A DNA stretch of 22,259 nucleotides. It comes from a virus. Below the pieces are notes generated by a model. The model was not told the origin of the DNA, searched no databases, and saw only the letters and a list, made by a program, of their open reading frames with translations. The position numbers were made by a program, and so were the translations under genes. The first letter of the stretch is position 1. Each line of letters starts with the position of its first letter. This document shows positions 6,717 through 22,259 of this stretch, in pieces. The DNA lies in the IMG/VR virus record IMGVR_UViG_3300017989_000476, positions 1 to 22,259 of that record, one strand, 5' to 3'.

Positions 6717-6994
6717 TCGCCTACTACTCCGCTGATCTTGCCCATGATGCGCCCCCCACTGATCGTCGCCCTGCTGGGCGCTGGCGTTTTATGTCGCGTT
6801 GTTGGCTCTTGGTGCTCGTGCAGAATGCCGCGCAGGGCGATGGCCTGGTCGAAGCAGTACGCCTGCCAGGGGTCGCACAGCCCGATTATCTGCGAGGGCC
6901 GCTGCCCGTATCGCTGGGCCATGGCATCGAGGAGAATCGCCTCATGACTCTTCACGAAACCCGGCAAAAACGTCGAGCCCCCCATTGATCGCAA
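6704..6994 (-). CDS. Tail assembly chaperone, T-like frame (expressed by frameshift from the gene at 6942-7367)
   Basis: This frame (96 codons from a TTG at 6994; internal ATG at 6985) overlaps the end of the preceding gene by 53 bases and lies between the tail tube gene and the tape measure gene. That is the position of the lambda gpT frame, fused to gpG by programmed frameshifting. No ribosome binding site precedes the TTG or the ATG, which favours synthesis as a C-terminal extension. The extension would add roughly 90 residues, including GGSTFLPGFVKSHEAILLDA and a basic C-terminal part. GPGT-type fusions act as chaperones that bind the tape measure during tail assembly and are absent from the virion. 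The residue sequence is not recognisable by itself; the assignment is from context and the slip site. Confidence 0.7.
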   Translation of the reverse strand: MRSMGGSTFLPGFVKSHEAILLDAMAQRYGQRPSQIIGLCDPWQAYCFDQAIALRGILHEHQEPTTRHKTPAPSRATISGGRIMGKISGVVGEWIE

Positions 6995-7367: not shown

Positions 7368-7387
7368 CTATCTCTCTCCTCTCGTAA

Positions 7388-7422
7388 GGGGCCGACACCC
7401 AGGAGGATGAGGCATCGGCCCC
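7388..7422 (-). other. Stem-loop after the tail tube gene
   Basis: Between the tail tube stop and the chaperone start, the minus strand has GGGGCCGA and TCGGCCCC separated by a 19-base loop, an 8-bp perfect GC-rich stem that a T.G wobble can extend. No T-tract follows (TTACGAGAGG follows), so it is not a classical intrinsic terminator. It may protect the 3' end of the tube mRNA or lower downstream expression. Confidence 0.6.
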
Positions 7423-7443
7423 CAGTGTTGTAGCGCTGCCGTA

Positions 7444-7998
7444 CTAGGCCAGGATGGAGATGGCGTAGTAGGCGCCGCCGGTGGGTACCTCGGGCAAAGC
7501 GCCGTCTTCGATATCCGTCGTGGTCTTTTGCGCCTCCCAGTCGAACAGGATCGGCGCCCACTTCTCGGCGTTGGCCCCGTCCGGCGCGGAGAAGGGCTTG
7601 ATCTGCGCCTTGAACACCGTGATTCGGATCTCAGCCGCGGAGTCATCAGAGTCATCCACAGCATAGAGATCGATCTGCAACTCGACGTTGTTCGGCGTAA
7701 GCTCGGCGTCCTCCATCATGTAGTAGCGTTTGGACTCGACGCCGTCGATGCCGGTGCCAGACGTGACGGCGCTCTTGCCGTACAGCGCCTCCAGCACCGT
7801 TTCATCGAACTTGTCGCCGCCGATCTGGCCCGAGAGCCGCTGGTTCATGTACTCTTCATCGGTCTCGCCGTCGCCCTCGAATTCGATGGTCGTGTATTCC
7901 GGCTCCATCGTGAGGGTGTTACCGAAGGGCAAGTCGGTGGTCGAGGCGTCGCTTTCCGTGATCTGGACATCCTTGATGCCCTTGACCTTGTAGGCCAT
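7444..7998 (-). CDS. Major tail protein (tail tube)
   Basis: A 184-aa acidic, beta-rich protein with the strongest visible ribosome binding site of the region (GGAGACGACAAC then ATG), as expected for an abundant structural protein. The sequence starts MAYKVKGIKDVQITESDAST and contains PEYTTIEFEGDGETDEEYMN, typical of the tail tube fold of siphoviruses. The C-terminal half holds alternating short hydrophobic segments (VELQIDLYAV, AEIRITVFKA) and ends in TGGAYYAISILA. It sits between the tail completion genes and the chaperones, the usual place of the tube subunit. It polymerises around the tape measure to form the tail tube. Confidence 0.85.
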   Translation of the reverse strand: MAYKVKGIKDVQITESDASTTDLPFGNTLTMEPEYTTIEFEGDGETDEEYMNQRLSGQIGGDKFDETVLEALYGKSAVTSGTGIDGVESKRYYMMEDAELTPNNVELQIDLYAVDDSDDSAAEIRITVFKAQIKPFSAPDGANAEKWAPILFDWEAQKTTTDIEDGALPEVPTGGAYYAISILA

Positions 7999-8010
7999 GT
8001 TGTCGTCTCC

Positions 8011-8430
8011 TTATACTCGTGGCACGCTGAACCGCGCCGTTTTGAGTAGCTTGTTCCAGTCGTCATCGGCCTGCTCTTCTGAGGTGCCGTCGTAGGTGCA
8101 ACGTCCCCAGTAGCGACCGTCAAAGGTGAATGATTCGTAGCCGTCGAATAGCGCCCGGAGCTGATCGATGATCCGATCGATGCGCCAGTAGCCCCAACCG
8201 GAGCCGCTGCGATCGTCGTAGATGTACCAGGTAAAGAACTGGCGAGCCGTGATCTCCGAGGTGGGCGTCTCTGCGCCCATACGGAGCACCACGAACGGTG
8301 CCGTCGTCACAGCGTCGGGATCTGCCGCCGCACGCGGATACACGCTGTCAGCGCCGTCGCCCAACATGGCGATCAGCGTTGCGTCCCCCGATGCGCGGGT
8401 CAAAACCTGCCGCTTGAGTGGCGTCGTCAT
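8011..8430 (-). CDS. Tail terminator / completion protein (DUF3168-like)
   Basis: A 139-aa protein upstream of the tail tube gene with an ATGA overlap to the previous stop. The N-terminus (LKRQVLTRASGDATLIAMLGDGADSVYPRA) matches the LR..L..D..L..ll.. VYP pattern of DUF3168-type tail completion proteins, and it is followed by PFVVLRMG, then a long segment FFTWYIYDDRSGSGWGYW and a helix RIDRIIDQLRALFDG. Tail terminators cap the tube at the head end and connect it to the head. The start has little Shine-Dalgarno signal, and coupling to the upstream gene is probable. Confidence comes from both sequence pattern and position. Confidence 0.65.
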   Translation of the reverse strand: MTTPLKRQVLTRASGDATLIAMLGDGADSVYPRAAADPDAVTTAPFVVLRMGAETPTSEITARQFFTWYIYDDRSGSGWGYWRIDRIIDQLRALFDGYESFTFDGRYWGRCTYDGTSEEQADDDWNKLLKTARFSVPRV

Positions 8431-9142: not shown

Positions 9143-9462
9143 TGATAGTCCCCATCACTGTCGGCGTACTTGGCGACGCTGAGCGTGTCTGTTTCGATGG
9201 ATACACCCACCTCGGCGCGGAGCTTGGCGGCACGTTCGTGGAGCACATTGCGGCCAACCGAGATTCCGCCGCGAGAGTAGGACTCGTACACGTCCTCACG
9301 AGCCATGTACTCATAGCAGTCAGCCAGCGCCAGATTGCGCTGGTTGGCCGTTGTCGATTCGCTGTCATGCTCATCGAGGAACGCAATGATCACCCAGTCG
9401 GGCAAGACATCATTGTCGTCCGTTGTTTTGAGGCGTATCCAGGCCAAATCACTGATCGCCAT
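9139..9462 (-). CDS. Putative head-tail adaptor (gp6-like)
   Basis: Read from ATG at 9462 (GAGGA about nine bases upstream); a longer frame begins at 9504 inside the upstream gene and is not preferred. This gives 107 aa. The protein is alpha-helical and carries LADCYEYMAREDVYESYSRGGISVGRNVLHERAAKLRAE at about 46-84. The YSRGGISV then helix with RAA.LR pattern is common in HK97 gp6-like head-tail adaptors that follow the portal ring. The acidic C-terminus ends in KYADSDGDYQ. It overlaps the HhH-like gene at its 5' end by 14 bases. Confidence 0.6.
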   Translation of the reverse strand: MAISDLAWIRLKTTDDNDVLPDWVIIAFLDEHDSESTTANQRNLALADCYEYMAREDVYESYSRGGISVGRNVLHERAAKLRAEVGVSIETDTLSVAKYADSDGDYQ

Positions 9463-9745
9463 TGATATGGTCCTCGATCTTGGCCAGCGTCGCCTCGCCG
9501 ACACCCGGCACGGCGGCCAGGTCGGCGAGGGAGACCAGCGGGGGCTGCAGGCGTTCGGCAGCGGCTTCCAGGAGGTCGGCCAGCTCCTCCCGCTGCTTCA
9601 TCGCTCTCACTCGCTGGTCGCCGCGACGACCGATGCGAGCTTCGACATCGACGTCGATGCCCAACCGGTGAGCCACAACTTCTGCGGCGGCAACGATGCG
9701 CTTCTGTGCGGCGGCGTCTCTAGCCGCCAGGTTGGATAGTCGCAT
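9449..9745 (-). CDS. Small helical protein with C-terminal helix-hairpin-helix-like motif
   Basis: A 98-aa, Ala/Arg-rich, mainly helical protein with a good AGGAG before ATG at 9745. The C-terminal residues ~71-93 read VSLADLAAVPGVGEATLAKI, which matches the helix-hairpin-helix pattern (L..L.GVG...A..I). The N-terminal ~70 residues form a likely coiled coil with basic patches (IGRRGDQRVRAMKQREEL). HhH motifs usually contact DNA non-specifically, and small helical proteins of this size occur in phage neck operons next to the adaptor gene. Function is not known. Confidence 0.6.
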   Translation of the reverse strand: MRLSNLAARDAAAQKRIVAAAEVVAHRLGIDVDVEARIGRRGDQRVRAMKQREELADLLEAAAERLQPPLVSLADLAAVPGVGEATLAKIEDHINGDQ

Positions 9746-9753
9746 GCGATCTC

Positions 9754-10908
9754 CTAGTTAGCCGACGAGCTGACGCGGTACCAGTTGGTGCCATCGCAGA
9801 CCAGGTGCAATGTATCGTCCTGATCCATAGCCATGGCGCTGTCCAACTTCATCGTGCCCGAGTCGGCGATGTTGATAGTGTTTGATCCGGTGTTGATCAG
9901 GATCACCTCTTCGCCGTCGCTGCCCACCGTGACTGTCGGCGTCACCTCGCCAGCCGCGGCAATTTCCTGAATCCGGCCGGTGGGCGTGAACGCCGTGCCG
10001 TTGGTTACCGTGATCACAGACTCGAGAGGCGAGATGAGCTTGCCGCTCACACTCAGGTTGCCGTCGGCGAGCGTGACGTTGCTGCCGGCCAATGCGGTGA
10101 ATGTGTTGGCGGTGATCCGAAAGTCGTCGGCGCCCGCGACCTCGACGTCGATCTGGTCGTCGGTGTCTGCGGTGATGCTGGTGTCGTTGTCGGCGTCCAG
10201 GTCGATCTTGGTGCCGCTCACGTCAACGCCGATGTCAAAGCCGGTGCCCACGCGGAGACCGATCTCGGTCGCCGTGACGACGCCAGAGACATTGTCAATC
10301 TCAACGCCAACCAGCGTATTGGTGCCGCTGGTTGCAGCCGTCGGCAACATGTCCACATTGAGCCAGTACATGGCATTGGTGCCCGTGGTGTAGGCCGGCG
10401 AGGTGCCGGTGATCTCTACAATGGCGCTCGTGGACTCGGTCGCCGCCGGATTGTCCTTGATGATCACATAGTCATCGCCGGCGAGGGCGATATCGATCTG
10501 ATCGTCAGTGTCCGCGGTGATCGTAGTGTCGGCGTCGGCGTCCAGCGTGATGGGGTTGCCGTTGGCATCTAGAGGCCCAACAATCGAGCTCCCCAACTGC
10601 GCCGTGAACGCGTTAGCAGTAAAGGTAAAGTCCTTGGCGCCCGACAGATACACGTCCAGCGTATCGTCTGTGCTGGCGTCCAGGTAGGTGTCCTGGTCCT
10701 CATCGAGGTAAACGGCGTTGCCGTCCATGTCGAGCTCGGAATGGAACAGCGCGCCGCCGTACCAGAGCGTGAACTTGCGCGCTACCAGCCACCCGCCGGG
10801 ATTCCAGCCGTAGGGCTGCGACTCGGCTACGACGGCGCCGCCGATGGTGAACAGCAGAGTGATCCATACAGCGATACAGAACAGTCGCTGCAGATTGTTT
10901 CGTCTCAT
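9754..10908 (-). CDS. Signal-peptide protein with acidic tandem repeats (possible head fibre or surface protein)
   Basis: A 384-aa protein with AGGAG six bases before ATG at 10908. Residues 1-28 look like a Sec signal peptide: basic MRRNNLQR, hydrophobic core CIAVWITLLFTIGGAVV, and a cleavage-like VVA-ES. The mature part is very acidic, and repeats three times the pattern LD..GN.I.LDAD.DT.I.ADTDDQID...AG.DD (about 59-94, 113-147, 229-263). The last part (~300-384) resembles the C-terminal domains of phage fibres, with DTLHLVCDGTNWYRVSSSAN. Its place, directly after the major capsid gene and its stem-loop, fits a head fibre or decoration protein, but a signal peptide is unexpected for a virion protein. 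An alternative is a secreted or cell-surface protein expressed during infection. No family name is claimed. Confidence 0.65.
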   Translation of the reverse strand: MRRNNLQRLFCIAVWITLLFTIGGAVVAESQPYGWNPGGWLVARKFTLWYGGALFHSELDMDGNAVYLDEDQDTYLDASTDDTLDVYLSGAKDFTFTANAFTAQLGSSIVGPLDANGNPITLDADADTTITADTDDQIDIALAGDDYVIIKDNPAATESTSAIVEITGTSPAYTTGTNAMYWLNVDMLPTAATSGTNTLVGVEIDNVSGVVTATEIGLRVGTGFDIGVDVSGTKIDLDADNDTSITADTDDQIDVEVAGADDFRITANTFTALAGSNVTLADGNLSVSGKLISPLESVITVTNGTAFTPTGRIQEIAAAGEVTPTVTVGSDGEEVILINTGSNTINIADSGTMKLDSAMAMDQDDTLHLVCDGTNWYRVSSSAN

Positions 10909-10966: not shown

Positions 10967-12037
10967 CTAGACGGCCAGCGGTGCGTCGTAGCCGCTCGGG
11001 ATAGCGTAGGAGCCGTTGCCGATGCGGTAGACCAGCGCGCCGAGGCGATTGGCGACGCCAAAGCCGCAGAATCGCAGGTAACGCATGCCCTTGTGGTTGC
11101 CGTCGATATCGATCTCTTCGGTGAAGAATCCCTGCAGCGTCGCCGAGTCGTACTCGCGCATCCAAAGCACGGGTGCCGTGCCGCGGGCGTGGCCGAACAG
11201 GTAGGAGTCGGGGAGGTTTTTCCACTCCACGATCCAGCACTTGTCGACCTTGCCCAGCACCTCGTGGCCGAAGCTCGCGCCAAAGGCGGTCGCCACTTGG
11301 TCGGTGTTTACACCATAGCGGAGGTCAGGGTCACCGACCTCGGTGAACCCGGTGAGGTTCTGGATCGAGCTCTTCAGATTGGTGGGCGTGTAAACCACAA
11401 TGTCGGAGCCCTCGTTGACCGGGTGCTCCATCAACTCGTCGTAGATGTCGTCGAACGGGTTGTTGGAGTCGTCGATCGAGCTGGCCTGCGCCAGGTAGTG
11501 GTCATCGTCGGCCGCGGAGCCCGACGTTTTGAGGAACTCAGTGCCATCACCGTTGGCCAGCGGCTCGACGGTGAGCGAGCCATGCAAATCGTCGCTGTAC
11601 GTCCAGGAGACGTTGTCAAAGAGGGCCGCCAGCATGTGCCGCCTCAACCAATCCTTGTCGCGCTGGATGGAGTTGAGCGTCCGGCGGTTGGCTTCCTCGA
11701 CGGTCATCAGGTTGGCGCTGACCCGGTTGGCGCCAAACGCGGTGCCCCCCCCCTGGATCGGGAAAGCCACGTCGTAGTAGCCCTCTTCTCGCACAGGGAG
11801 CGGGTTGCCGTCCTCGTTCAACGGCTGCAGGGTGCCGCTGCCAGGCTGCATGTAGCGGGTCTTGTATTCGGTTGTGCGTCGCACGAGATCGGCCATCATC
11901 GAATTGACCTGGCGGTTGTACTCGCCGACGCTCGTTCGGATAGCATCAAAGACGCGGTCTACACCGACGTCCGAGATGCGTTCGTTCATCAGGCCTGCGA
12001 GCTCTACAAAGCCGTAGGCCAACGTGTTGTTTGCCAT
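10967..12037 (-). CDS. Major capsid protein
   Basis: A 356-aa protein following scaffold and decoration genes, the standard place and size for an HK97-fold major capsid protein. GAGGTAA about nine bases before the ATG gives a strong initiation signal. The N-terminal ~60 residues are helical (MANNTLAYGFVELAGLMNERISDVGV), followed by a long region with FPIQGGGTAFGANRVSANLM (about 93-112), and the C-terminal part includes GFTEVGDPDLRYGVNTDQVATAFGASF and RYLRFCGFGVANRLGALVYRIGNGSYAIPSG. No recognisable protease site or N-terminal cleavage domain is visible, which fits the separate scaffold gene. The HK97 fold is inferred from position and size, not seen directly. Confidence 0.88.
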   Translation of the reverse strand: MANNTLAYGFVELAGLMNERISDVGVDRVFDAIRTSVGEYNRQVNSMMADLVRRTTEYKTRYMQPGSGTLQPLNEDGNPLPVREEGYYDVAFPIQGGGTAFGANRVSANLMTVEEANRRTLNSIQRDKDWLRRHMLAALFDNVSWTYSDDLHGSLTVEPLANGDGTEFLKTSGSAADDDHYLAQASSIDDSNNPFDDIYDELMEHPVNEGSDIVVYTPTNLKSSIQNLTGFTEVGDPDLRYGVNTDQVATAFGASFGHEVLGKVDKCWIVEWKNLPDSYLFGHARGTAPVLWMREYDSATLQGFFTEEIDIDGNHKGMRYLRFCGFGVANRLGALVYRIGNGSYAIPSGYDAPLAV

Positions 12038-12077: not shown

Positions 12078-12482
12078 CTACAGGTCCACGCGGAGCACTT
12101 TGTCCGCGGTCGTGTGCGCGAACACGGGCTCGACGGTGCCGACGATCTTCTCTACACTGCCAGCGGCGTCGGCCAGGCGCCCGTCGGTGTCTGACAGGTA
12201 CACATCGGCGTCATAGTCGAGGTCGCCCAGGATATTGCCCAGGTCGACCAGGCCCTTGCGGATCACCTCCAGCGATTCGCCAGCGGCCGCGCTCTGCAGG
12301 GCAATGCCTGCGCTGCGAGCCTCAGCGCTCGTGGTGGCATTCGACGGCGTGACCTTGCCGTTCGACGTGTCCCGCCGTACCACCTGGCCAGCGGTGATCG
12401 ACTCAGCGGCCGGGCCGCTGAACTGCTCGAGGATCTGTACAGGGGCGACATCCGTCGCCGTCACTGCGCTCAAGTTGGTCAT
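12078..12482 (-). CDS. Capsid decoration / cement protein (DUF2190-like)
   Basis: A 134-aa protein between scaffold and major capsid genes, initiated with CGGAG upstream of ATG at 12482. Its beta-rich pattern follows DUF2190-type capsid cement proteins: AESITAGQVVRRDTSNGKV, then ARSAGIALQSAAAGESLEVIRKG, then DYDADVYLSDTDGRLADA, and a closing KVLRVDL. It probably binds at capsid surface axes and stabilises the shell. It is a likely abundant protein. The family call is from the pattern AG..V..D..GK, A..AGIA...A.AGE..EV...G and VYLSD.DG.L. Confidence 0.7.
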   Translation of the reverse strand: MTNLSAVTATDVAPVQILEQFSGPAAESITAGQVVRRDTSNGKVTPSNATTSAEARSAGIALQSAAAGESLEVIRKGLVDLGNILGDLDYDADVYLSDTDGRLADAAGSVEKIVGTVEPVFAHTTADKVLRVDL

Positions 12483-12513: not shown

Positions 12514-13173
12514 CTACAGGCCTTGCACCTGGTAGCTACGCCTGCGCTTTTCATCGTCACTCAGGTTGTGGCTCACGCCGCGTCGCGGGTTGTTCGTGGG
12601 TGATCCCGTCGACGGTAGCGCGAGCTTGTCAGCGTTCTCGGTCAGGTATTCGAGCTGCTCCACAGGGTCCAGCTTGTCCAGTAGCGGGGTCAGATGCTCA
12701 GGAACCCCCTCGCGGGCTTTGTCGACGTAGCTCTTCAGCGCCTTGGCGTAGCGATCGCGCTCGGCCGTCAGCGTCTCGATCTGCGGCTCGAATTCGCTCA
12801 GCTTGGCCTCTGCATCCTCAGCCTTCTTTTGCGCCTTCTCGGCCAGCTCCTTGAATTCGCCGGCCTCCTCAAGGCGCTTCGCCTCAGCTTTGTCGGCCTC
12901 CCGCTCCTTGGCCTTGCGCTCCTTTTCCAATTCCTTGCGCCTCTCGCGCTCAGACTGGAGAGCCGATGTCAAGCCACCGGTATGCTCTGCGTAGGCGGCA
13001 CGCACTGCCTCGGATTGCTCTGCAAGCCAGGTCTCAAATTCGATGTCTTCTGGCGTCTCGCCATCGCCATCGTCGTTGGTATCGTCGTCGGCGGGCTCAG
13101 GATCTCCCTGGCCCTCGCCGGCGCCAGCATCGTCTGGCGCAAATCGGAACAGCTTTTGTGTCAACTCATCCAT
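12514..13173 (-). CDS. Scaffold protein
   Basis: A 219-aa highly charged protein with GGAGGA before ATG at 13173. Residues ~15-50 are very acidic (DDAGAGEGQGDPEPADDDTN), ~65-150 form a long charged coiled coil with QSERERRKELEKERKAKE followed by AEAKRLEEAGEFKELAEKAQ, and the C-terminus is basic (SDDEKRRRSYQVQGL), typical of capsid-binding ends in phage scaffolds. The place immediately upstream of decoration and capsid genes supports the call. No protease domain is visible. Synthesis probably starts downstream of the intrinsic terminator at 13220-13253, which suggests its level is set by read-through or by another signal. Confidence 0.85.
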   Translation of the reverse strand: MDELTQKLFRFAPDDAGAGEGQGDPEPADDDTNDDGDGETPEDIEFETWLAEQSEAVRAAYAEHTGGLTSALQSERERRKELEKERKAKEREADKAEAKRLEEAGEFKELAEKAQKKAEDAEAKLSEFEPQIETLTAERDRYAKALKSYVDKAREGVPEHLTPLLDKLDPVEQLEYLTENADKLALPSTGSPTNNPRRGVSHNLSDDEKRRRSYQVQGL

Positions 13174-13608: not shown

Positions 13609-13683
13609 TTAGTCTCGTGTCATCCATAGCAATACAGCGACCGCCAGTGCATAGCCCAGCAAGAGCCAAGCTATCCAGGGCAC
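13609..13683 (-). CDS. Possible 24-aa single-pass membrane peptide
   Basis: GTG at 13683 (GGGGG a few bases upstream) opens a 24-codon frame, MPWIAWLLLGYALAVAVLLW then MTRD, ending in TAA at 13609. The start overlaps the end of the second GT4 gene, and the next ATG comes two bases after the TAA. The peptide is almost all hydrophobic with a short charged C-terminus, i.e. one transmembrane helix. Tight packing at both ends supports real translation; a chance frame of this size is possible. It could be a small inner-membrane accessory for the glycan cassette or for lysis. No family is recognised. Confidence 0.4.
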   Translation of the reverse strand: MPWIAWLLLGYALAVAVLLWMTRD

Positions 13684-14534
13684 GCCGTGCCCCCATCCAT
13701 CAATCGTCGCTCAGCCTCTGCCCAGAACTCGGCCATGACGTGCCGCCAGGTGCATGTGGACAGAATCGTCGCCGGCCTGGTTGCCCCCCGCGCTTTCAAC
13801 AACTGCGACAGGAGGTATGTCAGTTGTGGTTGCACCGGCACACGTGGGTCTATCCAATGAGCCCGCAACGGTGCAAACCAGCGACGATAATCGGCCATGT
13901 CAAGGCAAGTAAACTCCGTGGCACATGCCGCCGCCTCCAGTGCTGGCAACTCAAAGCCCTCAACGCGGCGGGTCGCCAGTGCCAGGTGGCTTTCGTTGTA
14001 CAACCGGCACATTGTGGCGTCCGGCACGTTCTCAAAGTGGCAGTAGTGCTCGCCCCAGTCAAAGTCTTGCCCTACGTGGCAAAAATCGACGCCCAGCGCC
14101 ACACAGGCCTCGTAGGCCTCACGGAGGCACTCTGTCTCAGCGACGTATCCGGTGGCCATGATGCCGTACCGCTTCTCGACGTCCATCGGGTAGAACACGT
14201 CCATGTCGACGCCCAGCGGTGTCTGATAGAGTCTGTCCGTCGGCAAATCATAGTAGCTGGCCACCATATCGACATCGGCCCAGACCGCCGGCCAGTCAGC
14301 GACGTCCGCGGTTTTATGGCAATACTGCCACATGATCACTCGCTGATCGTCGTGTTCGCGCTGGAGGTCCTCGATCTCACCGCTGCCCACGACGTGGGCG
14401 ATGAGCCAGTCGGCGTCCTCTCGCCGCGGCGTGAACTCTATCCACTCAGGGGCGTGCTTGCTGGATTCGCTGACGACGCGGCGCACAGCACGTGATAAAT
14501 GCGCCTTGCAGGCGTTCCAAACGGTGACGGTCAC
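13671..14534 (-). CDS. GT4-like glycosyltransferase, 287 aa
   Basis: GTG at 14534 overlaps the TGA of the kinase-methyltransferase gene (GTGA) with GGAGGAAT upstream; the frame extends back to 14963 but that part only shadows the methyltransferase. The 287-aa protein has a GT-B layout: the N-terminal domain ends near PLGVDMDVFYPMD (about 106-118), a junction motif of GT4 enzymes, and the C-terminal domain has VEGFELPALEAAACATEFTC with a complete E-X7-E motif (E192 and E200). It is shorter than usual GT4 enzymes (about 350-400 aa), with a small N-terminal domain. It probably transfers a sugar from a nucleotide donor to the glycan made by this cassette. It is co-transcribed with the other four cassette genes. 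Confidence 0.75.
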   Translation of the reverse strand: MTVTVWNACKAHLSRAVRRVVSESSKHAPEWIEFTPRREDADWLIAHVVGSGEIEDLQREHDDQRVIMWQYCHKTADVADWPAVWADVDMVASYYDLPTDRLYQTPLGVDMDVFYPMDVEKRYGIMATGYVAETECLREAYEACVALGVDFCHVGQDFDWGEHYCHFENVPDATMCRLYNESHLALATRRVEGFELPALEAAACATEFTCLDMADYRRWFAPLRAHWIDPRVPVQPQLTYLLSQLLKARGATRPATILSTCTWRHVMAEFWAEAERRLMDGGTACPG

Positions 14535-15667
14535 GATTCCTCCCTCTGTAGCACATAGATCGGTCGCTGGCGCTCGGAGGTCCCCAGGCGATGGATCGCC
14601 CAGCCGGGGAATGTCTCCGCCAGATAGCGGCGCCAGCCCATGTCGTCTCGCTTGGATGCGTATTCGCCGATGCGGAGTGCCTCGAAATAGAACGTCTGCG
14701 TCGCCTGACGGATCATGGCCATCAATTCCTCGCGCCGGGCGACGTGCATCCACACGCTGAGGCAGAACACGACGTCGTATGCCGCCTGCCCCGTGTGTTC
14801 CTGGAGCCAGTCGAGGGTGAGGTGGTTCAGGTCGCAGACGTAGAACTCGGCCGGGCACTCGTACAGCGCCGCGACCTCGCGAGCGCAGCGGATGATGTTT
14901 TGCCCGCGATCGAGGCCTACCGCGCGACGTGCGCCATCTCGCACCGATTGCATCGTGAACCAACCTAGGTTACAGCCCAGATCGAGCACCGTCTTGCCGG
15001 CGACGCCTGGGTGCATGATCTGCCAACGGTGCCGACAGTTGCGCTCCCCGGCGAGATGGTACCCGCCCGGCCAGTCCATCTGCTGGTAGCTCATTGCCAC
15101 GCCGGTGGCGGGCGCCTTGCGAATCTGGGCGTCCAGGGCGCGGAGTTGCGTCGTCGAGGGCCGCTGATCCATCACGAGGTCCCTTTCTATGCCATAGATC
15201 GAGTGCATCCAGCACAGGACGGCGTCCAGGCAGAGATAGGAACGCAGGACGTCCGGCCCCTTGCCCCACAAGTCGACCAGCGCGGGGCGCTCGCATGGTC
15301 TGGCGTGCTGAAAGTCGATCAGCACCGGATGGCCGTCGTAGTCGAGCATGATATTCTCAATTTTGACGTCGCGATGGGCGTAGCCGCGCGCATGGATGGC
15401 CCGCAGCGTCGCCAACAGCTCGACGGAGATCTGGTGGGCTTGACCGGCGGTCAGCATCGGACAGTCAGCCAGGCAGCGCCCGTATTCGGGCATCTCATAC
15501 CAATCGGCGCCTTGGGCCAGGATGGGCACCACGCCGTCGATGCCAGCCAGGTCCATCAGGGCCGTCACAGCGTTGCGCGTCGGACGCTCTTTGCGTATGA
15601 CGCCGTCTCGCACGCGGTACAGACGAGATCCGCTGGCGTTGTAGCGTGCGCCGATGCGCTCTCTCAC
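14531..15667 (-). CDS. Protein-kinase-like domain fused to SAM-dependent methyltransferase
   Basis: GTG at 15667 overlaps the TGA of the acyltransferase gene (GTGA); GAGG and GGTG lie upstream. A longer frame to 15724 runs into that gene and is not preferred. The 378-aa protein has two domains. Residues ~14-200 are kinase-like: a candidate Lys at 26, AHRDVKIENIML with HRD at 98-100 and Asn105, and LIDFQHARP with D118-F119-Q120 (DFQ instead of DFG). Residues ~210-378 are a class I methyltransferase: TVLDLGCNLGWFTMQ (226-240), acidic Asp253 in VGLDRG, CDL at 278-280, and DVVFCLSVWMHV (298-309). The same pair of activities, in reverse order, forms WbdD, which phosphorylates then methylates the end of the E. 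coli O9a glycan. By analogy it may cap a glycan; that is inference. The kinase substrate may also be a lipid or protein. Confidence 0.85.
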   Translation of the reverse strand: MRERIGARYNASGSRLYRVRDGVIRKERPTRNAVTALMDLAGIDGVVPILAQGADWYEMPEYGRCLADCPMLTAGQAHQISVELLATLRAIHARGYAHRDVKIENIMLDYDGHPVLIDFQHARPCERPALVDLWGKGPDVLRSYLCLDAVLCWMHSIYGIERDLVMDQRPSTTQLRALDAQIRKAPATGVAMSYQQMDWPGGYHLAGERNCRHRWQIMHPGVAGKTVLDLGCNLGWFTMQSVRDGARRAVGLDRGQNIIRCAREVAALYECPAEFYVCDLNHLTLDWLQEHTGQAAYDVVFCLSVWMHVARREELMAMIRQATQTFYFEALRIGEYASKRDDMGWRRYLAETFPGWAIHRLGTSERQRPIYVLQREES

Positions 15668-16173
15668 GCGTTCACCGCCCTCTCGCCGATCTTGCGCGCC
15701 GGAACGCCGGCCCAGATTTCCCATTCAGGAATGTCCCGCGTTGCCACCGCGCCCGCGCCCAGGACTGCTCCCTCATTCAATGTCACACCGGGCAACACAA
15801 TGGCCCCTGCGCCCAGAAAGGCGTAACGGGCGATGTATACCCGAGATCGATTCACGACCTGCCTCTCTTGTGGCGATGCCGCCGACATACTCAACCCCGA
15901 TGGCCTATTCGATCCGGCGATGATCTTGGCTCCGGAGGCCAGCGCAGCATAGTCGCCAATCTCTACCAAACCACCGCCAATGTTGACGTGGCAGAACGAG
16001 GCGATGTGAACGTATCGGCCCACCGTCACGCCCAAGCCGCCCTCGATCTTGACGAATGAATCCACTCTGCAATAGTCGTCTAGCTCGATTTGCCCAGGGC
16101 GCAGGATGATCGTCGGCTCATAGATCTCGACGCCGACGCCACACCATGGCCTTACGCCGTGTTCGGATGCCAT
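15664..16173 (-). CDS. Left-handed beta-helix (hexapeptide) acyltransferase
   Basis: ATG at 16173 (GAGGGTGAGGGT upstream) gives 169 aa; the frame upstream to 16230 overlaps the GT-A gene and is unsupported. Residues ~14-160 show hexapeptide-repeat periodicity of the left-handed beta-helix, with VGRYVHIASFCHVNIGGG (51-68), EIGDYAALASGAKIIAGS (71-88) and FLGAGAIVLPGVTLNEGAVL (119-138), then GAGAVATRDIPEW and AGVPARKIG, the terminal signature of O-acetyltransferases of the WbbJ, VatB and galactoside acetyltransferase type. A loop at about 89-110 interrupts the coils as in sugar acetyltransferases. It probably O- or N-acylates a sugar of the glycan made by the neighbouring glycosyltransferases. 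Active as a trimer in the family. Confidence 0.85.
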   Translation of the reverse strand: MASEHGVRPWCGVGVEIYEPTIILRPGQIELDDYCRVDSFVKIEGGLGVTVGRYVHIASFCHVNIGGGLVEIGDYAALASGAKIIAGSNRPSGLSMSAASPQERQVVNRSRVYIARYAFLGAGAIVLPGVTLNEGAVLGAGAVATRDIPEWEIWAGVPARKIGERAVNA

Positions 16174-16889
16174 ACCCTCACCCTCGGATCGCACCACACG
16201 CGATACCCAGCTCGCCTCGCCTGCTCGCACCAGCCGACGATGGCCCGATCGCTGGCGTGTACACCGGCTCTAGCTGCCCGCGCGGTCATGAGCAGGCACG
16301 ACCCTGCGCTGTACAACGGAAACGGCTCACTCGGCGGCGGCTGCTCTCTGTCAAACGTGGCCCCATCCGGTAGTTGCCGAAACGACCAGGTGTCATAGAG
16401 CACAGAGCCCTTGCGCTTGTTGGCTTCGAGCCAGGCGTGGTCGGTGTTGTGTGTCGGCGGGTGCTCGACGGCTACCCATGGTGCAACGATGTCCACACGA
16501 GTTGCGATCAACTTGCTCAGCAACTGAGGGCCCCAGATCAAGTCGCTCTCAATCCACAGGATGTACTGCGCCCAACCGTCGAGCAGCGCCGACCACACCG
16601 CCCTGGAGCCCACCGTCGAGCAATCGATCATGCGGTCAGGGTCGGTGACGGAGCCCTTGGGTGTATGCCCCAGGTGGTGCTGCATCACCACGATGTCGCG
16701 CCCCGAGCCCCGCTGCCACTTGCAGAGCTCGTCATAGGTATGATCCCTGCTATCGCCCTCGATCAAGTACAGACGCATGGCGTCATCTGGCCAGTCCAGG
16801 GCGTCGATCTGGCGCACAAAGCGCCCCAAGTCCCCGCGCCGAACGCTGTTGCAGAACATGCTACAGATGGCCACCCGCTGCTCAGCCAT
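16152..16889 (-). CDS. Glycosyltransferase, GT-A-like with ESD motif
   Basis: ATG at 16889 with GAGGAG upstream gives 245 aa; the frame upstream to 16946 overlaps the GT4 gene. The N-terminus (MAEQRVAICSMFCNSVRRGD) has the VAI....N beta-strand start of GT-A enzymes, followed by MRLYLIEGDSRDHTYDEL and then YILWIESDLIWGPQLLSKLI. The ESD at about 114-116 sits where the metal-binding DXD lies. The C-terminal half has SFRQLPDGATFD and PLYSAGSCLLMTARAARAG, and the end has RVRVWHPNTA with a His that often ligands metal in this fold. It has an 8-base overlap with the upstream GT4 gene and 22 bases with the acyltransferase. Likely a glycan-building transferase in the cytoplasm; the sugar is unknown. 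Confidence 0.75.
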   Translation of the reverse strand: MAEQRVAICSMFCNSVRRGDLGRFVRQIDALDWPDDAMRLYLIEGDSRDHTYDELCKWQRGSGRDIVVMQHHLGHTPKGSVTDPDRMIDCSTVGSRAVWSALLDGWAQYILWIESDLIWGPQLLSKLIATRVDIVAPWVAVEHPPTHNTDHAWLEANKRKGSVLYDTWSFRQLPDGATFDREQPPPSEPFPLYSAGSCLLMTARAARAGVHASDRAIVGWCEQARRAGYRVWCDPRVRVWHPNTA

Positions 16890-18123
16890 GCCACTCCTCG
16901 CCCCCGAGGTCTTTGTGCCGCAGCATAGATTCGCGGAATAGTGCATCGAACCGCTCGGGGACCTGCTGTGTCTCCCATGTATGTTCTTTAGCCCAGCGCA
17001 TGCAGCGCCAGCGCATCAGGTCATAGCCCTTACCGCAATACATTGTATTGAGCCCGTCGACCACCGCCTCGATATCGACCATGGCGTACTGGGTCGTGTT
17101 GCGGCACGCTGTGTAAGTGTACGTGTACGACAACAGGATCCCGGCTTGGCCGACGTAGGACATTGCCGCATAGTCAGTGATCAGCGTCGGCGTGCCGGCG
17201 GCCTGGGCCTCGTGTGTGCTCAGCTCCCAACCGCCACCGGCCGTGGTCGAGAGGTGGCAATCGGCGGCGTTGTAGATCTGATTGAGCTTTTCGATCGGAA
17301 CGCCCAGGCGCTGCGGTCCCAGGCCAGAGTGCATCACCTGGTCGCCAATGCCGTACCGCTCGATCAGCGCTGGGATGTCGTAGCCGCCGTCGATGACTAA
17401 CGGGGTGTGGAGCCACAGCCTGGCCTCAGGCTTGTCTTGAGCGAACATGGCAAAGGCCTCGATCGTCGATGGCCACTGTTTGCGCTCCTGATTCTTATCG
17501 ATGCGAAGCACGATGAACCAATCATCGGGGATCTCTGTGCCGCTCTCCTTGTTCAGCGCTGCCCTGGCCCTGCGTTTCGCCGTCTTTTTGTCGTCACCCA
17601 TCGGCCAGAACTCGTCGGAATCGACGCCGTGGCCGATGACCTCCAAACGATCGCCAAGCTGACGATCGAGATCGCGGATCACCTCCTTGGCGTACTCGGT
17701 GTACACGACGGGGATCGACGCCTGTCGTATGCCGTCAAGGTAGCTGGCCGGGAACGGGTCGCCGTCTACCGGCGAATAGGTCACCACCGGCACCGTGGCC
17801 AGCGCCTCGGCGTTGTCCCGATAGCTGTAAAACTCCTCGATGATGGGCAGATCGTTGAGGATCCACACCACGTCGGGCTGGAGCCGGCCGATCAGATCTT
17901 TGACTCTGCCCACGCCGTACACGTCGCGGGCCGGCGAGTACTGTGGCAGGTAGTACTGATATGGGTACCGATCCAGGTCGGGCATATCGCCGTGATAGTT
18001 GATAGCGCACAGGTGCACATCGTACTCGCCACTGTCTACCAGCGGATAGAGCACATGATCCACAACGCGACCAAAGCCGGTCGGGATTTGCGGCGCGTCG
18101 GCAAAGGCTAATAAACGGATCAC
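16882..18123 (-). CDS. GT4 family glycosyltransferase, 413 aa
   Basis: GTG at 18123 follows a strong AGGAGGA. The protein is GT-B fold: N-terminal MIRLLAFADAPQIPTGFGRV with a Rossmann strand and glycine loop, PVVTYSPVDGDPFP (about 111-125), VIGHGVDSDEFWPM (junction), then WFIVLRIDKNQERKQWPSTI, where R.....RK matches the donor-binding R and K of GT4, and finally GGGWELSTHEAQAAGTPTLI. The last matches the E-X7-E region, with E305 kept but the first Glu replaced by Gly297. Full family length. It leads the cassette of five glycan genes, next to the minor head gene; typical phage transferases of this type modify virion or surface sugars. The acceptor is unknown. Confidence 0.85.
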   Translation of the reverse strand: MIRLLAFADAPQIPTGFGRVVDHVLYPLVDSGEYDVHLCAINYHGDMPDLDRYPYQYYLPQYSPARDVYGVGRVKDLIGRLQPDVVWILNDLPIIEEFYSYRDNAEALATVPVVTYSPVDGDPFPASYLDGIRQASIPVVYTEYAKEVIRDLDRQLGDRLEVIGHGVDSDEFWPMGDDKKTAKRRARAALNKESGTEIPDDWFIVLRIDKNQERKQWPSTIEAFAMFAQDKPEARLWLHTPLVIDGGYDIPALIERYGIGDQVMHSGLGPQRLGVPIEKLNQIYNAADCHLSTTAGGGWELSTHEAQAAGTPTLITDYAAMSYVGQAGILLSYTYTYTACRNTTQYAMVDIEAVVDGLNTMYCGKGYDLMRWRCMRWAKEHTWETQQVPERFDALFRESMLRHKDLGGEEWHG

Positions 18124-18200
18124 CGTTTCCTCCTCTTCACTGGTCCCCGATGCCGATAGGTGCCCGCTGGCACCCTGCGTCGACTGCGGCGCTTGGTCAC
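18120..18200 (-). CDS. Possible 26-aa arginine-rich peptide
   Basis: A GTG at 18200 overlaps the TGA of the minor head gene (GTGA), and the frame ends with TGA at 18120-18122, overlapping the GTG of the GT4 gene. The 26 residues MTKRRSRRRVPAGTYRHRGP then VKRRKR contain 13 Lys or Arg and one His. The overlap at both ends is the pattern of a translated gene in this operon. Part of the basic bias comes from the AGGAGGA ribosome site of the next gene, so translation is not proven. A basic peptide could bind nucleic acid. No family is recognised. Confidence 0.4.
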   Translation of the reverse strand: MTKRRSRRRVPAGTYRHRGPVKRRKR

Positions 18201-19204
18201 GCTGCCATCCTCTCCATCAGCACCTCTCGCGGCGTCAATACTGTCTCTGTCGTGCAAAGACCGTTCGGATGATCCAGCGGTGTTCGGCCAGGCAGGTATA
18301 CGCCGCGTGGATCGATGCCGTATCGCTGTAGCCTGGCCAGCATCCGTTGCTCTGCCCGCTTGCCCGCCGGCGGTTGCCCGTCGAGGATCACCGTGCCCGG
18401 CATGCGTTCGGCCCAGTCGTCACAGATGTCGCGCGCGGTGCGCCCGTCGGTGGCCGCCAGCATCCTCTGGGCGTGTTGTGGACTCAGCACCCAGCGACTG
18501 CCCAGGGCGATGCCTGCGTCGGCCAGCTCGGCGTCGGCCTGATCCCGTGCCTCGCCATACGCCTGATTGATCTCTGTCCTGGCCAGGCGGTACGCGTTGT
18601 ACGAGACATTGCGCGGCTGGTTGGAATAGATGGCGCTAGGTACATCGCCCTTGGGCAACACACGGTCAGGGAGCAGCCACCGCTCGGCGCGTTTGGCGAT
18701 CTTGGCCGCCGACCAGCCCTGGTTGACGCCGTTTAGCACGTCCTGCTGCAACCATTGTCGGCTGGCATAGTCCAACCGCCAGATCCTATCGCTCAAATTG
18801 AGCCCCTTGATGGTGCGTTCGGTCATGATGTCGACCACGCGGCGCGGAATGTCGTCGAACCCCGGCAACCCCGGGAACGCCACACCCTGGACATACACAT
18901 TGAGCGCCCGTTGGCTGCCCGTTGCAGCAACGGTGGCCGCCTGACTGATTTGGCTGAGCAGCTGCCCCTCATAGCTGGTGCGAAACTGGCCCAGCGCCAC
19001 GCCGACTTCGCGCTCGATGATGCCCATGTCTTGCAGCGTCAACTCGCCGCCCTCGCCGGCCAACCTCGTGATCGTGCCCGAGATCCTGTCGGCGACATCC
19101 CGCAACAGATCGACGATGGCGCCGCGCAGCCGACGTTCGTCGCGTTCGTATAGCTTGCGCGCCTCGGCCAGCGCCTTGTGATACAGGTCCTCGGGACTCG
19201 GCAT
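18197..19204 (-). CDS. Minor head protein (Mu F-like)
   Basis: A 335-aa protein starting with ATG at 19204, overlapping the portal stop (TGATG), directly after the portal gene as for Mu gpF and SPP1 gp7-type minor head proteins. The N-terminal ~170 residues are helical (HKALAEARKLYERDERRLRG). From ~200 the Mu F region is visible: NVSYNAYRLARTEINQAYGE (about 209-228), GSRWVLSPQHAQR (about 247-259), ICDDWAERMPG and then DHPNGLCTTETVLTPREVLM near 312-331, the (H)PN.(R/L)C pattern of the family's C-terminal end. It is probably ejected with or bound at the portal vertex in procapsid assembly. The GTGA overlap at its end leads into the glycan cassette. Confidence 0.85.
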   Translation of the reverse strand: MPSPEDLYHKALAEARKLYERDERRLRGAIVDLLRDVADRISGTITRLAGEGGELTLQDMGIIEREVGVALGQFRTSYEGQLLSQISQAATVAATGSQRALNVYVQGVAFPGLPGFDDIPRRVVDIMTERTIKGLNLSDRIWRLDYASRQWLQQDVLNGVNQGWSAAKIAKRAERWLLPDRVLPKGDVPSAIYSNQPRNVSYNAYRLARTEINQAYGEARDQADAELADAGIALGSRWVLSPQHAQRMLAATDGRTARDICDDWAERMPGTVILDGQPPAGKRAEQRMLARLQRYGIDPRGVYLPGRTPLDHPNGLCTTETVLTPREVLMERMAA

Positions 19205-20652
19205 CAGACGGCGTCCTCATCGTCGGCATCCGGCGGCCAGTTGGCGAACTCTGCCATCTGCTGCGCCTTTTCCCTGTCTGCGGCCTGGATCAAATCGGGG
19301 ATCTCATCGTTATCGTAGCCTCGTTTGCGCAAATACTCGGCCCGACTGATCGTGCCGGCGGTCAGGTCAGTGAGCGCCAGGCGCTGCTCCATTTCCTCGT
19401 CGCTGGGTAGGATCGATCCGCACTCGATATCGTGCGACACGTCGTAGATGTCCTGCGCCTTGCCCATCATCACCATGGCCATGGCGTTGGCCCGATGCAG
19501 CGCTTCGATGGCCTGGCGCCGCATGCCCTCCAGCTTGATCTGCAACTCGGTGAGTTGCAGGTTGACACTGTACCCCGACGGGTTGTTCTGCTCCCGCACA
19601 CGTTTGATGTGCCACTCAGGGAGCATCTCCTCGACGTTGCCTTTGCACCAATCGACAAACTCGGTCATGTTCTGAATTGAGCCCGACCATTCCAGCATCT
19701 CCAGGCGAGGCGTGACGCCCTCGGGGAGCCCAGCCGGCGGGTTGATGAACCAAGCGTTTGTCTGCCCCTTGGTTTCCTCGCCCTTGGTCAGCGAGCCAGC
19801 CTTGATATGATAGGCCACAAGCTGCGGGTCAGCATTGATGCGGATGATGTCTGCCATTTGCGAGGCGATCTCATTGACGGCGTCCAGGCTGGGCAACACC
19901 TCGGCAAACGTCGATGCGCCATAAACCTCGCCGATGTCAATGAGTCTCACTGGCACAACGGGGAGCAACCCCTGCCGGGCCAGCGGATCGTCGCGCTCCC
20001 ACTCGTCTGCATCGACAGGATTGGAGTCAAATGTGTAGGGCTGGTTGTCACGCAGCGTCTCATAGCGATCTGGATAAATGGCCAGCGTATACGTGTGCAT
20101 CTCGCCGCTGGCCTCAAAGTAATTATAGGATAGCTCCGCATAGGCCAGCCTGTCCTGGTCGTGCGGGTCATAGGCAACGTCGAACTCTTGCGCGCTATGT
20201 ATGAGGATCTTGGGCTGCCGGACATCGCCAGCCAGGCGCAGATAGACGTCGCCCATCACCGATCCCCAAAGCAGGAGGCGGTAAAGCTGCGTCTGAAGCT
20301 GCGACCGCTGCCAGAGATCGACGATGGCGCGCTCTATGGCCTGGGTGTCCGAGGTGACCACCACCGGCGGCGCAAGGACGGCGGCGGCGTCCAGGTTGCC
20401 AGCCTGAGTGCAGACATTGAACAGACTCTTGATCTTCTGATAGAGGTTCTCGGATTCACGCCGCGCACCCTTGCCCTTGATCGACTCGATCAGGTCAGCG
20501 TCGTACATGCGATTGAGATAGTACGCCCAGTTGAGCTGGTACCGCTCCAAGCGGTCGCTCTGCGTCTCCTGGATCGCCGCCGTGGCAATGTCCAGCGGGT
20601 TACGAGCGCCGAAATAATCGGCTGTGACTTTGAGATAGTCTCTTATCGCCAT
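19204..20652 (-). CDS. Portal protein
   Basis: A 482-aa protein three bases after the terminase large gene and before the minor head gene. The N-terminal part has the pattern of SPP1/phi29-like portals (ERYQLNWAYYLNRMYDADLI about 36-55, then SLFNVCTQAGNLDAAAVLAP). Residues ~180-260 form a beta-rich middle (YTLAIYPDRYETLRDNQPYT). Residues ~255-300 contain GQTNAWFINPPAGLPEGVTP and the crown-like helical part follows with QLTELQIKLEGMRRQAIEAL (about 375-394). Its role is a dodecameric DNA channel at one capsid vertex and docking site for the terminase. The C-terminus is acidic (WPPDADDEDAV). ATG at 20652; ribosome binding site weak. Confidence 0.9.
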   Translation of the reverse strand: MAIRDYLKVTADYFGARNPLDIATAAIQETQSDRLERYQLNWAYYLNRMYDADLIESIKGKGARRESENLYQKIKSLFNVCTQAGNLDAAAVLAPPVVVTSDTQAIERAIVDLWQRSQLQTQLYRLLLWGSVMGDVYLRLAGDVRQPKILIHSAQEFDVAYDPHDQDRLAYAELSYNYFEASGEMHTYTLAIYPDRYETLRDNQPYTFDSNPVDADEWERDDPLARQGLLPVVPVRLIDIGEVYGASTFAEVLPSLDAVNEIASQMADIIRINADPQLVAYHIKAGSLTKGEETKGQTNAWFINPPAGLPEGVTPRLEMLEWSGSIQNMTEFVDWCKGNVEEMLPEWHIKRVREQNNPSGYSVNLQLTELQIKLEGMRRQAIEALHRANAMAMVMMGKAQDIYDVSHDIECGSILPSDEEMEQRLALTDLTAGTISRAEYLRKRGYDNDEIPDLIQAADREKAQQMAEFANWPPDADDEDAV

Positions 20653-20655
20653 GAT

Positions 20656-21873
20656 TTACCAGAGTGCAATGGTGCCAGCCTCTACCTCAACAGGTTGGGA
20701 AAGCGCCATGCCGTGCCAGGCCAGCGCGGTTGCAATGACGGTGTCGTCGTGCATGCCGGGCGGCGCGTTGTAACGCACACGCCCAGACGGTAGGCGCTCC
20801 ATCTCGTAAGCCTGCAATTCATTGATGAGCACCGGATCATTGATGATCTTCAGCGAACCAGTCTCCACCCCCAGTTGCAGCGATTCGATGGCGTGGGCCT
20901 TGGTTGCGTTGGTCGTGGTGAACCCACGGACAGGCAACCCATGCATCTGGAGATCCTCGATGTTCGGCTCGCCGATCGAGTTGCGTTCGGCAATGATCAC
21001 CGTTGGCCGGAATCGCTGATCCAGCGCCTCCAGGTATCGCCGCTGGACACGATAGTCAACCTGGTTGAACCGTTCCAGGTGCACAATCTCCTGCGTCGTG
21101 ATGTCACCGACGGCAAAGACGGTAAAATCTTCGATCTTGGCCCAGTCGACACCGATGACGTACTCGTGGCCCGGCAAGGCCGCGTCTTGCTCGTGCGCCG
21201 TTGCAGCATCGACCACACCGCGGAATACACCGCCGGCATCCTCGAGGAACTGGGCGAGTATTTCCTGGGCAAAGATGCGCGCCGGCATCTCGCGCCGCAT
21301 GCGCTCGATCTCTTCTTTGTCAATGTACGGGTTAGCGCTGGTCGGCATCTGCCAGCTCATCCACTCGGGATACGCCTCGTCCTGGCCCTGAGTCCACATC
21401 TGCCAAAAGCCGTTGCGGCCTTTGGGCGTGGAGAAAAACCATGCATCGCCCGCAGCATCGACAAGCAACGGTCGGAGGGCGGCGTTCCAAATAGGCATGA
21501 GATCGGCAACCATCGCCGCCTCATCGACGATAATCCGCTTGTACCAGCGACTGCGCCCCGCGTTGGCGTCCTGGAGAGTCCACATTTCAAGCACGCCCTT
21601 GGTGGCCAGCTCCAAACGATGGTCGCCAGCGTGGCTGCGCATCGTGATCGGCTCTAGCACCTCGCAAATCTCTTGCCAGGCATCGATCATTACCTTGTAG
21701 GTCGGTGCAAACCAGCCGACGGGTTGGCCTGAGAGCATCGGCCAGATGATGCGGTCGATGCCCAATTTGGTTTTGCCAAAGCGCCGGCCACATGCTGCGA
21801 CGTTGTAGCGCCGCGCTTCGTCAACTATTCTCTGTTGGGCCAGGTGGGGCATCGGGAGATGAATCTCCTGCAC
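20656..21873 (-). CDS. terL: Terminase large subunit
   Basis: The ATPase-nuclease that packages DNA. I prefer the GTG at 21873 (AGGGGGG upstream), giving 405 aa; ATG at 21888 or 21897 are alternatives, all overlapping the small subunit by tens of bases. ATPase domain: Walker A CGRRFGKT (28-35), adenine-binding region FAPTYK, Walker B RIIVDEAAMV with D117-E118, and coupling motif WFFSTPKG (145-152). Nuclease domain: YVIGVDWA with D243, VIIAERNSIGEPN with Glu at about 302, and the metal-binding HDDTVIATALAWHG at about 379-392. All catalytic motifs are intact. The gene has a longer open frame upstream to 22005 that only covers the small subunit gene. Confidence 0.95.
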   Translation of the reverse strand: MQEIHLPMPHLAQQRIVDEARRYNVAACGRRFGKTKLGIDRIIWPMLSGQPVGWFAPTYKVMIDAWQEICEVLEPITMRSHAGDHRLELATKGVLEMWTLQDANAGRSRWYKRIIVDEAAMVADLMPIWNAALRPLLVDAAGDAWFFSTPKGRNGFWQMWTQGQDEAYPEWMSWQMPTSANPYIDKEEIERMRREMPARIFAQEILAQFLEDAGGVFRGVVDAATAHEQDAALPGHEYVIGVDWAKIEDFTVFAVGDITTQEIVHLERFNQVDYRVQRRYLEALDQRFRPTVIIAERNSIGEPNIEDLQMHGLPVRGFTTTNATKAHAIESLQLGVETGSLKIINDPVLINELQAYEMERLPSGRVRYNAPPGMHDDTVIATALAWHGMALSQPVEVEAGTIALW

Positions 21874-22259
21874 CGCCCCCCTCGTCATGCTCGTCATACA
21901 CCACCTTGATGGTGAGTTGGCCGTCGCCAAAGTCGGTCGGTTGCATGGCCTTACCCATTTCCCACTCGATGATCTCAGTAGAAACGCTCTGTCGCAGCTT
22001 TTCATCTGAGCTATCCAAGCCAGAAACCTTGACCAGCATGGCCTTGGCCAGGTTGCGGCGCCGCAGTGTTGATGCCACTACGATGCCATCATGGGCCATC
22101 AGGCGCACCGCGTCTTTGACAAGGTCTGGCCAGTGATAGACAGTGTCTGGCCTGATGCCAACGGCCAGAGCGGCGTCCTTGTCTGTGCTGTGTTCCTGAC
22201 GAGCCACGACAAATCTGATCTGATCTGTAGAAAGCTGCTCCAATATGGACCGCAGCTCC
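21821..22259 (-). CDS. terS: Terminase small subunit (5' end beyond window)
   Basis: The frame is open to the right edge of the window. A TTG at 22243 is the first start codon inside it, but codons upstream (coding ELRSI) continue to the edge, so the true start is probably outside. The visible C-terminal part contains LSTDQIRFVVARQEH, a typical opening for small subunits, then KDAALAVGIRPDTVYHWP, a helix-turn-helix with TVYHW as the recognition end. The acidic tail (EHDEGGGAGDSSPDAPPGP) is typical of small subunits that contact the large one. It would bind the packaging site and recruit TerL. The 3' end overlaps the large subunit gene. Confidence 0.82.
   Translation of the reverse strand, partial: ELRSILEQLSTDQIRFVVARQEHSTDKDAALAVGIRPDTVYHWPDLVKDAVRLMAHDGIVVASTLRRRNLAKAMLVKVSGLDSSDEKLRQSVSTEIIEWEMGKAMQPTDFGDGQLTIKVVYDEHDEGGGAGDSSPDAPPGPTENS

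Follow-up and report, generated by a model that had tools for sequence, protein, structure and literature searches.

Why should a phage place an enzyme that joins a kinase to a methyltransferase (MT) among its head genes, and on which glycan would such an enzyme act? The question arises from a virus record of 22,259 bases, the whole of which is referred to here as the window. A preliminary description of this DNA read one of its genes as a possible reversed-order analogue of WbdD, the chain terminator of E. coli O9a and K. pneumoniae O3 (PDB 4azs, 4ax8 and 4uw0). WbdD likewise combines a class I MT and an ePK-like kinase in one chain, and it caps O-antigen (PMC3482155).

A single reading frame within a head operon

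The gene occupies positions 14531-15667 on the minus strand, where a GTG start opens a single unbroken frame that translates to 378 codons (378 amino acids); the plus strand of the same interval is interrupted by stops. The GTG at 15667 is well supported as the start, since it overlaps the TGA of the upstream acetyltransferase gene (GTGA) and lies just 3′ of a GAGAGGG stretch. The same kind of overlap (GTGA) joins the TGA of the fusion gene to the GTG that opens the glycosyltransferase gene behind it. Because of these overlaps on both sides, translation of the acetyltransferase, the kinase-MT and the second glycosyltransferase is probably coupled. As first described, kinase motifs (HRDVKIEN, residues 98-105, and DFQ, residues 118-120) and MT motif I (residues 227-237) stand in one frame. 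Judged from its sequence, this frame is one gene and not two joined by error, because the kinase-to-MT order recurs in four independent phage contigs and GC3 is equal in the two halves of the gene (0.81). The same two findings exclude the sequencing artefact that the preliminary description had allowed for.

The fusion belongs to a five-gene sugar cassette, and all large genes of the region lie on the minus strand. In order, the cassette encodes a GT4 glycosyltransferase of 413 amino acids (16882-18123; phrog_2170, identified by PHROG and by a profile of fused glycosyltransferases described below), a candidate GT2/Anp1-like glycosyltransferase of 264 amino acids (16152-16946; phrog_1574), a candidate hexapeptide-repeat (NeuD/WbbJ-like) sugar acetyltransferase (15664-16173; 169 amino acids from the ATG at 16173, its stop overlapping the fusion start), the kinase-MT, and a second, GT4-like glycosyltransferase of 287 amino acids that starts with GTG (13671-14534) and overlaps the fusion gene stop. 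A simple hydropathy scan found no strongly hydrophobic, membrane-like stretch of 19 residues in any of the five proteins. No ABC transporter was recognised among the scanned window genes, and the host may supply one.

The cassette sits between minor head and scaffold genes. Upstream lie TerL (20656-22005), the portal (19204-20652) and a head-morphogenesis (minor head) protein (18197-19204), and downstream a scaffold-like protein (12514-13173), homologues of which adjoin the major capsid protein (MCP) in L015-L017. Beyond these are a small conserved head protein of decoration-like character (12078-12482) and, from position and conservation, the probable MCP (10967-12037), each a possible glycan acceptor. 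The terminases closest to that of the window in the cultured set are those of Thermus and Tunturiibacter phages, at ~32% identity. The gene adjoining that for the capsid protein (9754-10908, minus strand) encodes 384 amino acids that begin like a signal peptide and include repeated units of the LDADADTTITADTDDQIDI type; it has no Pfam match. A similar-looking gene is found in the same place (9304-10281) in L014, a phage related by its capsid protein, and the gap occupied by the window cassette holds a phrog_1574/glycosyltransferase-like gene there. In another phage related by its capsid protein (L015:8152-8763, plus strand), the minor head-scaffold gap contains a CBM_5_12 carbohydrate-binding-module protein and a virion structural protein.

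Relatives with a fused glycosyltransferase

Single-sequence searches of IMG/VR, phages and GTDB contigs found no close relative of the fusion protein, and plasmid matches to the protein alone covered one domain only. When viral sequences were scanned with the kinase alignment, most of the matches were to ordinary protein kinases. The DNA pattern HxDxKxxN-12-DFQ had no match in IMG/VR; the relatives described below carry DFE, DFD or DYG. No relative with the kinase-then-MT order reached E<=1e-18 in a shallow survey of 940 genomes from three phyla (~5-8 candidates scored per genome). A pattern for the MT motif, D-x-GCNxG-[aromatic]-F-x7-GA, identified 35 loci in IMG/VR, at four of which the MT shares its frame with a kinase that precedes it. 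A family profile run on all fetched loci confirmed these as four independent phage proteins and no more (L054/L057, L033/L056, L037/L058 and L040/L055), and a second signature, ER[DN]xxxRWxxMxPxV, matches these four IMG/VR contigs only. The kinase-first order proposed for the window protein, opposite to that of WbdD, is therefore shared by the four relatives and can be found in viral databases. These relatives are few (n=4) and ~30-34% identical, and they lie on unrelated contigs that are fragments.

Each of the four has a GT4 glycosyltransferase joined ahead of the kinase, giving GT4-kinase-MT frames of 748-824 codons. The window GT4 and the two fused glycosyltransferases that were scanned fall in the same PHROG, phrog_2170. 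When five proteins were searched with a profile of the four fused glycosyltransferases, the window GT4 matched at E 4.9e-31, the alignment spanning positions 6-370 of 400. The window carries a split form of this three-domain enzyme, since its separate GT4 belongs to phrog_2170 and matches the fused profile over almost its whole length. The other marks of the family are also present, namely the kinase-to-MT order, S[ED]RxR near the C-terminus, the ER[DN]xxxRW cap and a co-encoded phrog_2170 glycosyltransferase. We found no published GT-kinase-MT phage protein in the open-access literature. The relatives' records (29, 45 and 64 kb, with a fourth of 4 kb that is uninformative; all fragments) contain no ABC_tran gene.

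Head genes also neighbour the sugar genes in several other phages. In L055 a major head protein is followed by a small protein and the triple fusion, with a tail-fibre protein two genes further on, and L056 has capsid-like and small proteins with homologues both in L055 and in Microcystis phage Mae-JY09, where the MCP-small protein-GT4 order is the same. The gene order is MCP-GT4-methyltransferase-GT2-neck in Pontimonas phage phiPsal1, and portal-hypothetical-GT4-galactosyltransferase-methyltransferase, ahead of the head protease, in Synechococcus phage S-CBS4. These three cultured phages share with the window a phrog_2170-like GT4 by the capsid or portal genes, and phiPsal1 and S-CBS4 also a SAM methyltransferase and a second glycosyltransferase; they differ in that the matched glycosyltransferase genes have no kinase domain and the methyltransferase is a separate gene. 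Tetrasphaera phage TJE1 is something of an exception, with glycosyltransferase, methyltransferase and epimerase genes just upstream of the terminase genes and not among the head genes. The small protein of 130-150 amino acids that is conserved between the capsid and glycosyltransferase genes in three phages (L055:4164-4601, L056:782-1234 and L162:5540-5938) may serve as a decoration protein or accept the glycan.

A minimal kinase and a WbdD-like methyltransferase

The N-terminal region (residues ~15-165; 15173-15625) is predicted to be a kinase, as the preliminary description held, with Pfam matches to Pkinase (E 2e-9, 37.7 bits against a curated cut-off of 31.7) and APH (E 3.6e-7, 30.6 bits against 23.2). 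The stretch from the catalytic loop to DFQ, HRDVKIENIMLDYDGHPVLIDFQ (residues 98-120; 15308-15376), aligns without gaps to HDDVRPWNVMVDARQHARLIDFG of WbdD (HDDVRPWN...LIDFG), with 11/23 residues identical; no chance match to the catalytic-loop pattern is expected in the window. H98, the catalytic D100 and the metal-binding N105 and D118 are invariant across the five family proteins, and D100, N105 and D118 are the counterparts of the catalytic Asp, Asn356 and Asp369 of WbdD. The residue after DF varies in the relatives (DFE, DFE, DFD and DYG). Given this variation and the intact HxD...N...D set, the DFQ of the window protein, which had been seen as leaving catalytic competence open, is no argument against activity. 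A Gly-rich loop and a conserved alpha-C Glu (Glu274 in WbdD, involved in Mg coordination) are not evident in the alignment (A1), and the N-lobe is modelled with pLDDT of about 44-75. A kinase profile matches the WbdD kinase with a probability of 97%, and when used alone it scores best against Hanks-type (eukaryotic-like) protein kinases, StkP and CAMKK2 among them. Only 64-76 residues separate DF from the MT cap across the family (76 in the window protein), which is shorter than usual for a peptide-binding protein kinase. Such a stretch would leave little room for a peptide-binding part and, together with the glycosyltransferase fusion, favours a sugar as substrate.

The C-terminal class I MT domain (residues 193-378; 14534-15091) begins at a YQQ...ERNCRHRW cap, which corresponds to the YQxI...R[DN]CxxR pre-motif of WbdD, and contains motif I, VLDLGCNLGWF (residues 227-237; 14957-14989). 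Several methyltransferase families of Pfam match, the best being Methyltransf_25 (E 1.3e-8, 35.8 bits against a cut-off of 27). In an AlphaFold model built from 39 sequences, confidence is high in the MT (pLDDT 85-98 in most ten-residue blocks) and low in part of the kinase, the C-lobe included; a single-sequence fold reached a pLDDT of 40. The structure search listed MT matches only, and the kinase assignment is by sequence. With VIA-align, the MT model superimposes on WbdD with a Z of 17.0 over 181 residues (rmsd 2.8-2.9, 24-25% identity). Many other MTs equal WbdD in Z, mostly over 155-175 residues, and WbdD is a longer match and closer in sequence than most of them. The fold list also includes the methylphosphate capping enzyme MePCE at 26% identity, and the domain matches the tRNA methyltransferase CmoB as well.

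His132, His133 and Arg203 of WbdD are essential for phosphate methylation (PMC3482155). In the window protein, SVWMH (residues 304-308; 14744-14758) supplies His308 at the position of His133 and Met at that of His132, and SERQRPIY (residues 364-371; 14555-14578) supplies Arg368 at that of Arg203. The SAM motif, H308, R366 and R368 are invariant in the five proteins; the His132 position is Met or Gln in the family. The His133 and Arg203 equivalents are not diagnostic, being common in standalone MTs, which mostly share both; conservation of Arg203 was for this reason rejected as a mark of a phosphate MT.

Related arrangements occur elsewhere. Standalone MTs of ~205 amino acids with a YQxI...R...R cap are encoded on the plus strands of large phage contigs of 110-548 kb (L061:5854-6510, L062:5896-6510, L063:5896-6510 and L059:5902-6510). 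In L061-L063 the two His (SIYHHV) and the C-terminal Arg that form the phosphate site in WbdD are all present, and the MT genes sit among sugar-nucleotide-like genes, where no adjoining kinase gene was recognised. In a Candidatus Amesbacteria sequence (L085:5866-7290, plus strand), an MT precedes a choline-kinase-like kinase, which is the WbdD order with another kinase. In genomes of Omnitrophota and Bacteroidota (L084:5875-6723 and 6609-8099; L141 around 6001-7724), an MT gene is directly followed by a kinase-like gene, and these pairs may be two-gene counterparts of the fusion.

Comparison with WbdD and other glycan-modifying systems

The WbdD reference sequence was that of E. coli HS. A phmmer search of the PDB with the fusion protein matched WbdD in both domains, and a profile of the five family proteins placed WbdD first in the whole PDB (E 1.8e-20, against 9e-13 for the next match), a rank that it owes to both domains scoring. 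Shared features are the YQxI...RxCxxR cap, motif I, the His133 and Arg203 equivalents and the gapless H-x-D...N...D kinase core. WbdD, however, is built as MT then kinase, whereas the window protein and its four relatives are kinase then MT. The C-terminal coiled-coil ruler and polymerase/membrane-recruitment region of WbdD are absent, as the fusion protein stops 3 residues past the last MT strand. The setting differs too, in being that of a phage, with a GT4 fused or co-encoded, within a head module. In an MT tree the five proteins form their own group (93/93); WbdD falls outside it, and both the great length of its branch and the uncertainty of its position are to be noted. It follows that the idea of a reversed-order WbdD analogue survives in part: both domains are homologous and their order is opposite, but there is no ruler, no sister grouping in the MT tree and a phosphate triad that is partial. 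From the domain order and the lack of a ruler, we regard the fusion protein as resembling WbdD in its parts and as lying outside the WbdD family. We make no claim that it is a WbdD with swapped domains, since WbdD does not join the five proteins in the tree, though its position there is unsure. The chemistry is probably similar.

A precedent for fusions of a glycosyltransferase, a kinase and an MT is ORF6 of K. pneumoniae O7, an MT-kinase terminator shown to make methyl-phosphate on a glycan (PMC11231755). Like the phage family, it combines an MT, a kinase and glycosyltransferase modules in one chain. Compared by description only, it differs in having the MT first, an unrelated AmiN-like kinase, C-terminal GT2 modules, a coiled coil and a CBM, and in serving an O-antigen pathway (PMC11231755). 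For virion glycans, the mycobacteriophages Che8, Corndog and Myrna have been shown experimentally to glycosylate their capsid and tail-tube proteins with their own glycosyltransferases (cited in PMC12363180 and PMC11256854). Phage-encoded glycosyltransferases are what these systems share with the window, and the available text of these papers describes no kinase-MT cap.

Discussion

The reading that we put forward, and for which we see about an even chance, is that the fusion is a phage bifunctional enzyme that would phosphorylate and then methylate a glycan carried by its own virion. The N-terminal minimal kinase would move phosphate from ATP to a sugar of the glycan that the co-transcribed glycosyltransferases make. 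The C-terminal MT would then use SAM to methylate the phosphate, leaving a WbdD-type methyl-phosphate on the sugar; a hydroxyl of the sugar is the less likely target. Computation shows the fusion and its recurrence in four independent phages, the added GT4 there, the homology of both domains to WbdD, the intact HxD...N...D set, a confident MT fold and the head-module position, here and for related glycosyltransferases; the sugar substrate, the order of the two reactions, the methyl-phosphate product and the virion as target are what we infer. Because the cassette forms part of the head operon, proteins of the phage head or tail are the most likely carriers of the glycan. A virion glycan is favoured over host O-antigen by this head-module context, by the lack of a membrane-like stretch in the cassette proteins and by the lack of an ABC transporter in the relatives' records. 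Against phosphate as the MT substrate stand the Met or Gln at the His132 position and the frequency of the His133 and Arg203 equivalents in standalone MTs. The proposal as a whole is also weakened by the nearness of the kinase, taken alone, to eukaryotic-like protein kinases, by a Gly-rich loop and alpha-C Glu that are not evident, by the low-confidence C-lobe, by the fragmentary contigs of the relatives and by the gene order in TJE1. The fusion had been suggested to cap a glycan and so to set its length. Capping gains a link to glycans through the GT4 fusion in the relatives, while the head-module position points to the virion and not to host O-antigen. Length setting finds no support: the protein lacks a coiled-coil ruler, and the relatives' records of 29, 45 and 64 kb contain no ABC-transporter gene.

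Other explanations make different sense of the same locus. One is that the enzyme caps or modifies O-antigen or capsule on the host surface, either while the phage infects or in the lysogenic state, perhaps so as to block superinfection. Homology of both domains to the O-antigen-capping WbdD (PMC3482155) would suit such a role, as would the co-encoded glycosyltransferases and acetyltransferase. We nevertheless judge it unlikely, given a cassette that lies inside a head operon and not in a lysogeny or moron region, proteins with no strongly hydrophobic stretch, relatives whose contigs have no ABC-transporter gene, and related glycosyltransferases that adjoin capsid or portal genes in cultured phages. 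It is likewise unlikely that the two domains act separately, the kinase on one sugar or nucleotide-sugar precursor and the MT on a sugar hydroxyl, with no methyl-phosphate formed. The WbdD of E. coli O8 methylates a hydroxyl without a kinase (PMC3482155), His132 is not conserved here, and the remaining residues are common to standalone sugar-cluster MTs. On the other hand, kinase and MT remain fused and adjacent in five diverged proteins, as would suit consecutive steps on one acceptor, and the closest fold-list matches by identity include two phosphate MTs, WbdD and MePCE.

The match of the kinase profile to Hanks-type enzymes such as StkP and CAMKK2, and of the MT to CmoB, could also indicate that the kinase phosphorylates a protein of the host or the virion and that the MT modifies protein or nucleic acid, with the glycosyltransferase link incidental. 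This seems very unlikely when a GT4 is fused in 4/4 relatives, the operon consists of sugar enzymes and the 64-76 residues from DF to the MT are short for the usual protein-kinase C-lobe. Finally, the failure to find very close relatives would be expected if two genes had been joined by chance or during assembly, or if the enzyme had decayed into a pseudo-enzyme, but we give such an origin hardly any credence, because four independent contigs carry the same fusion with invariant catalytic residues and GC3 is uniform.

If the enzyme does modify a glycan of the virion, a wider and more tentative reading becomes possible, namely that GT4-kinase-MT proteins (split in the window) are an undescribed phage family that seals a head sugar with methyl-phosphate, and hence a counterpart of WbdD that arose independently in viruses with its domains in the opposite order. 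The fusion to a glycosyltransferase makes the acceptor testable, in that the product of the glycosyltransferase should be the substrate of the kinase, and the split form of 378 amino acids could stand in for WbdD as a compact enzyme with which to study sugar-phosphate methylation in vitro. In the literature considered here, methyl-phosphate capping of glycans has so far been described for a few bacterial O-antigens. Were the proposal true, a glycosyltransferase, a kinase and a WbdD-like MT fused in one chain among capsid genes would mean that viruses make capped virion glycans.
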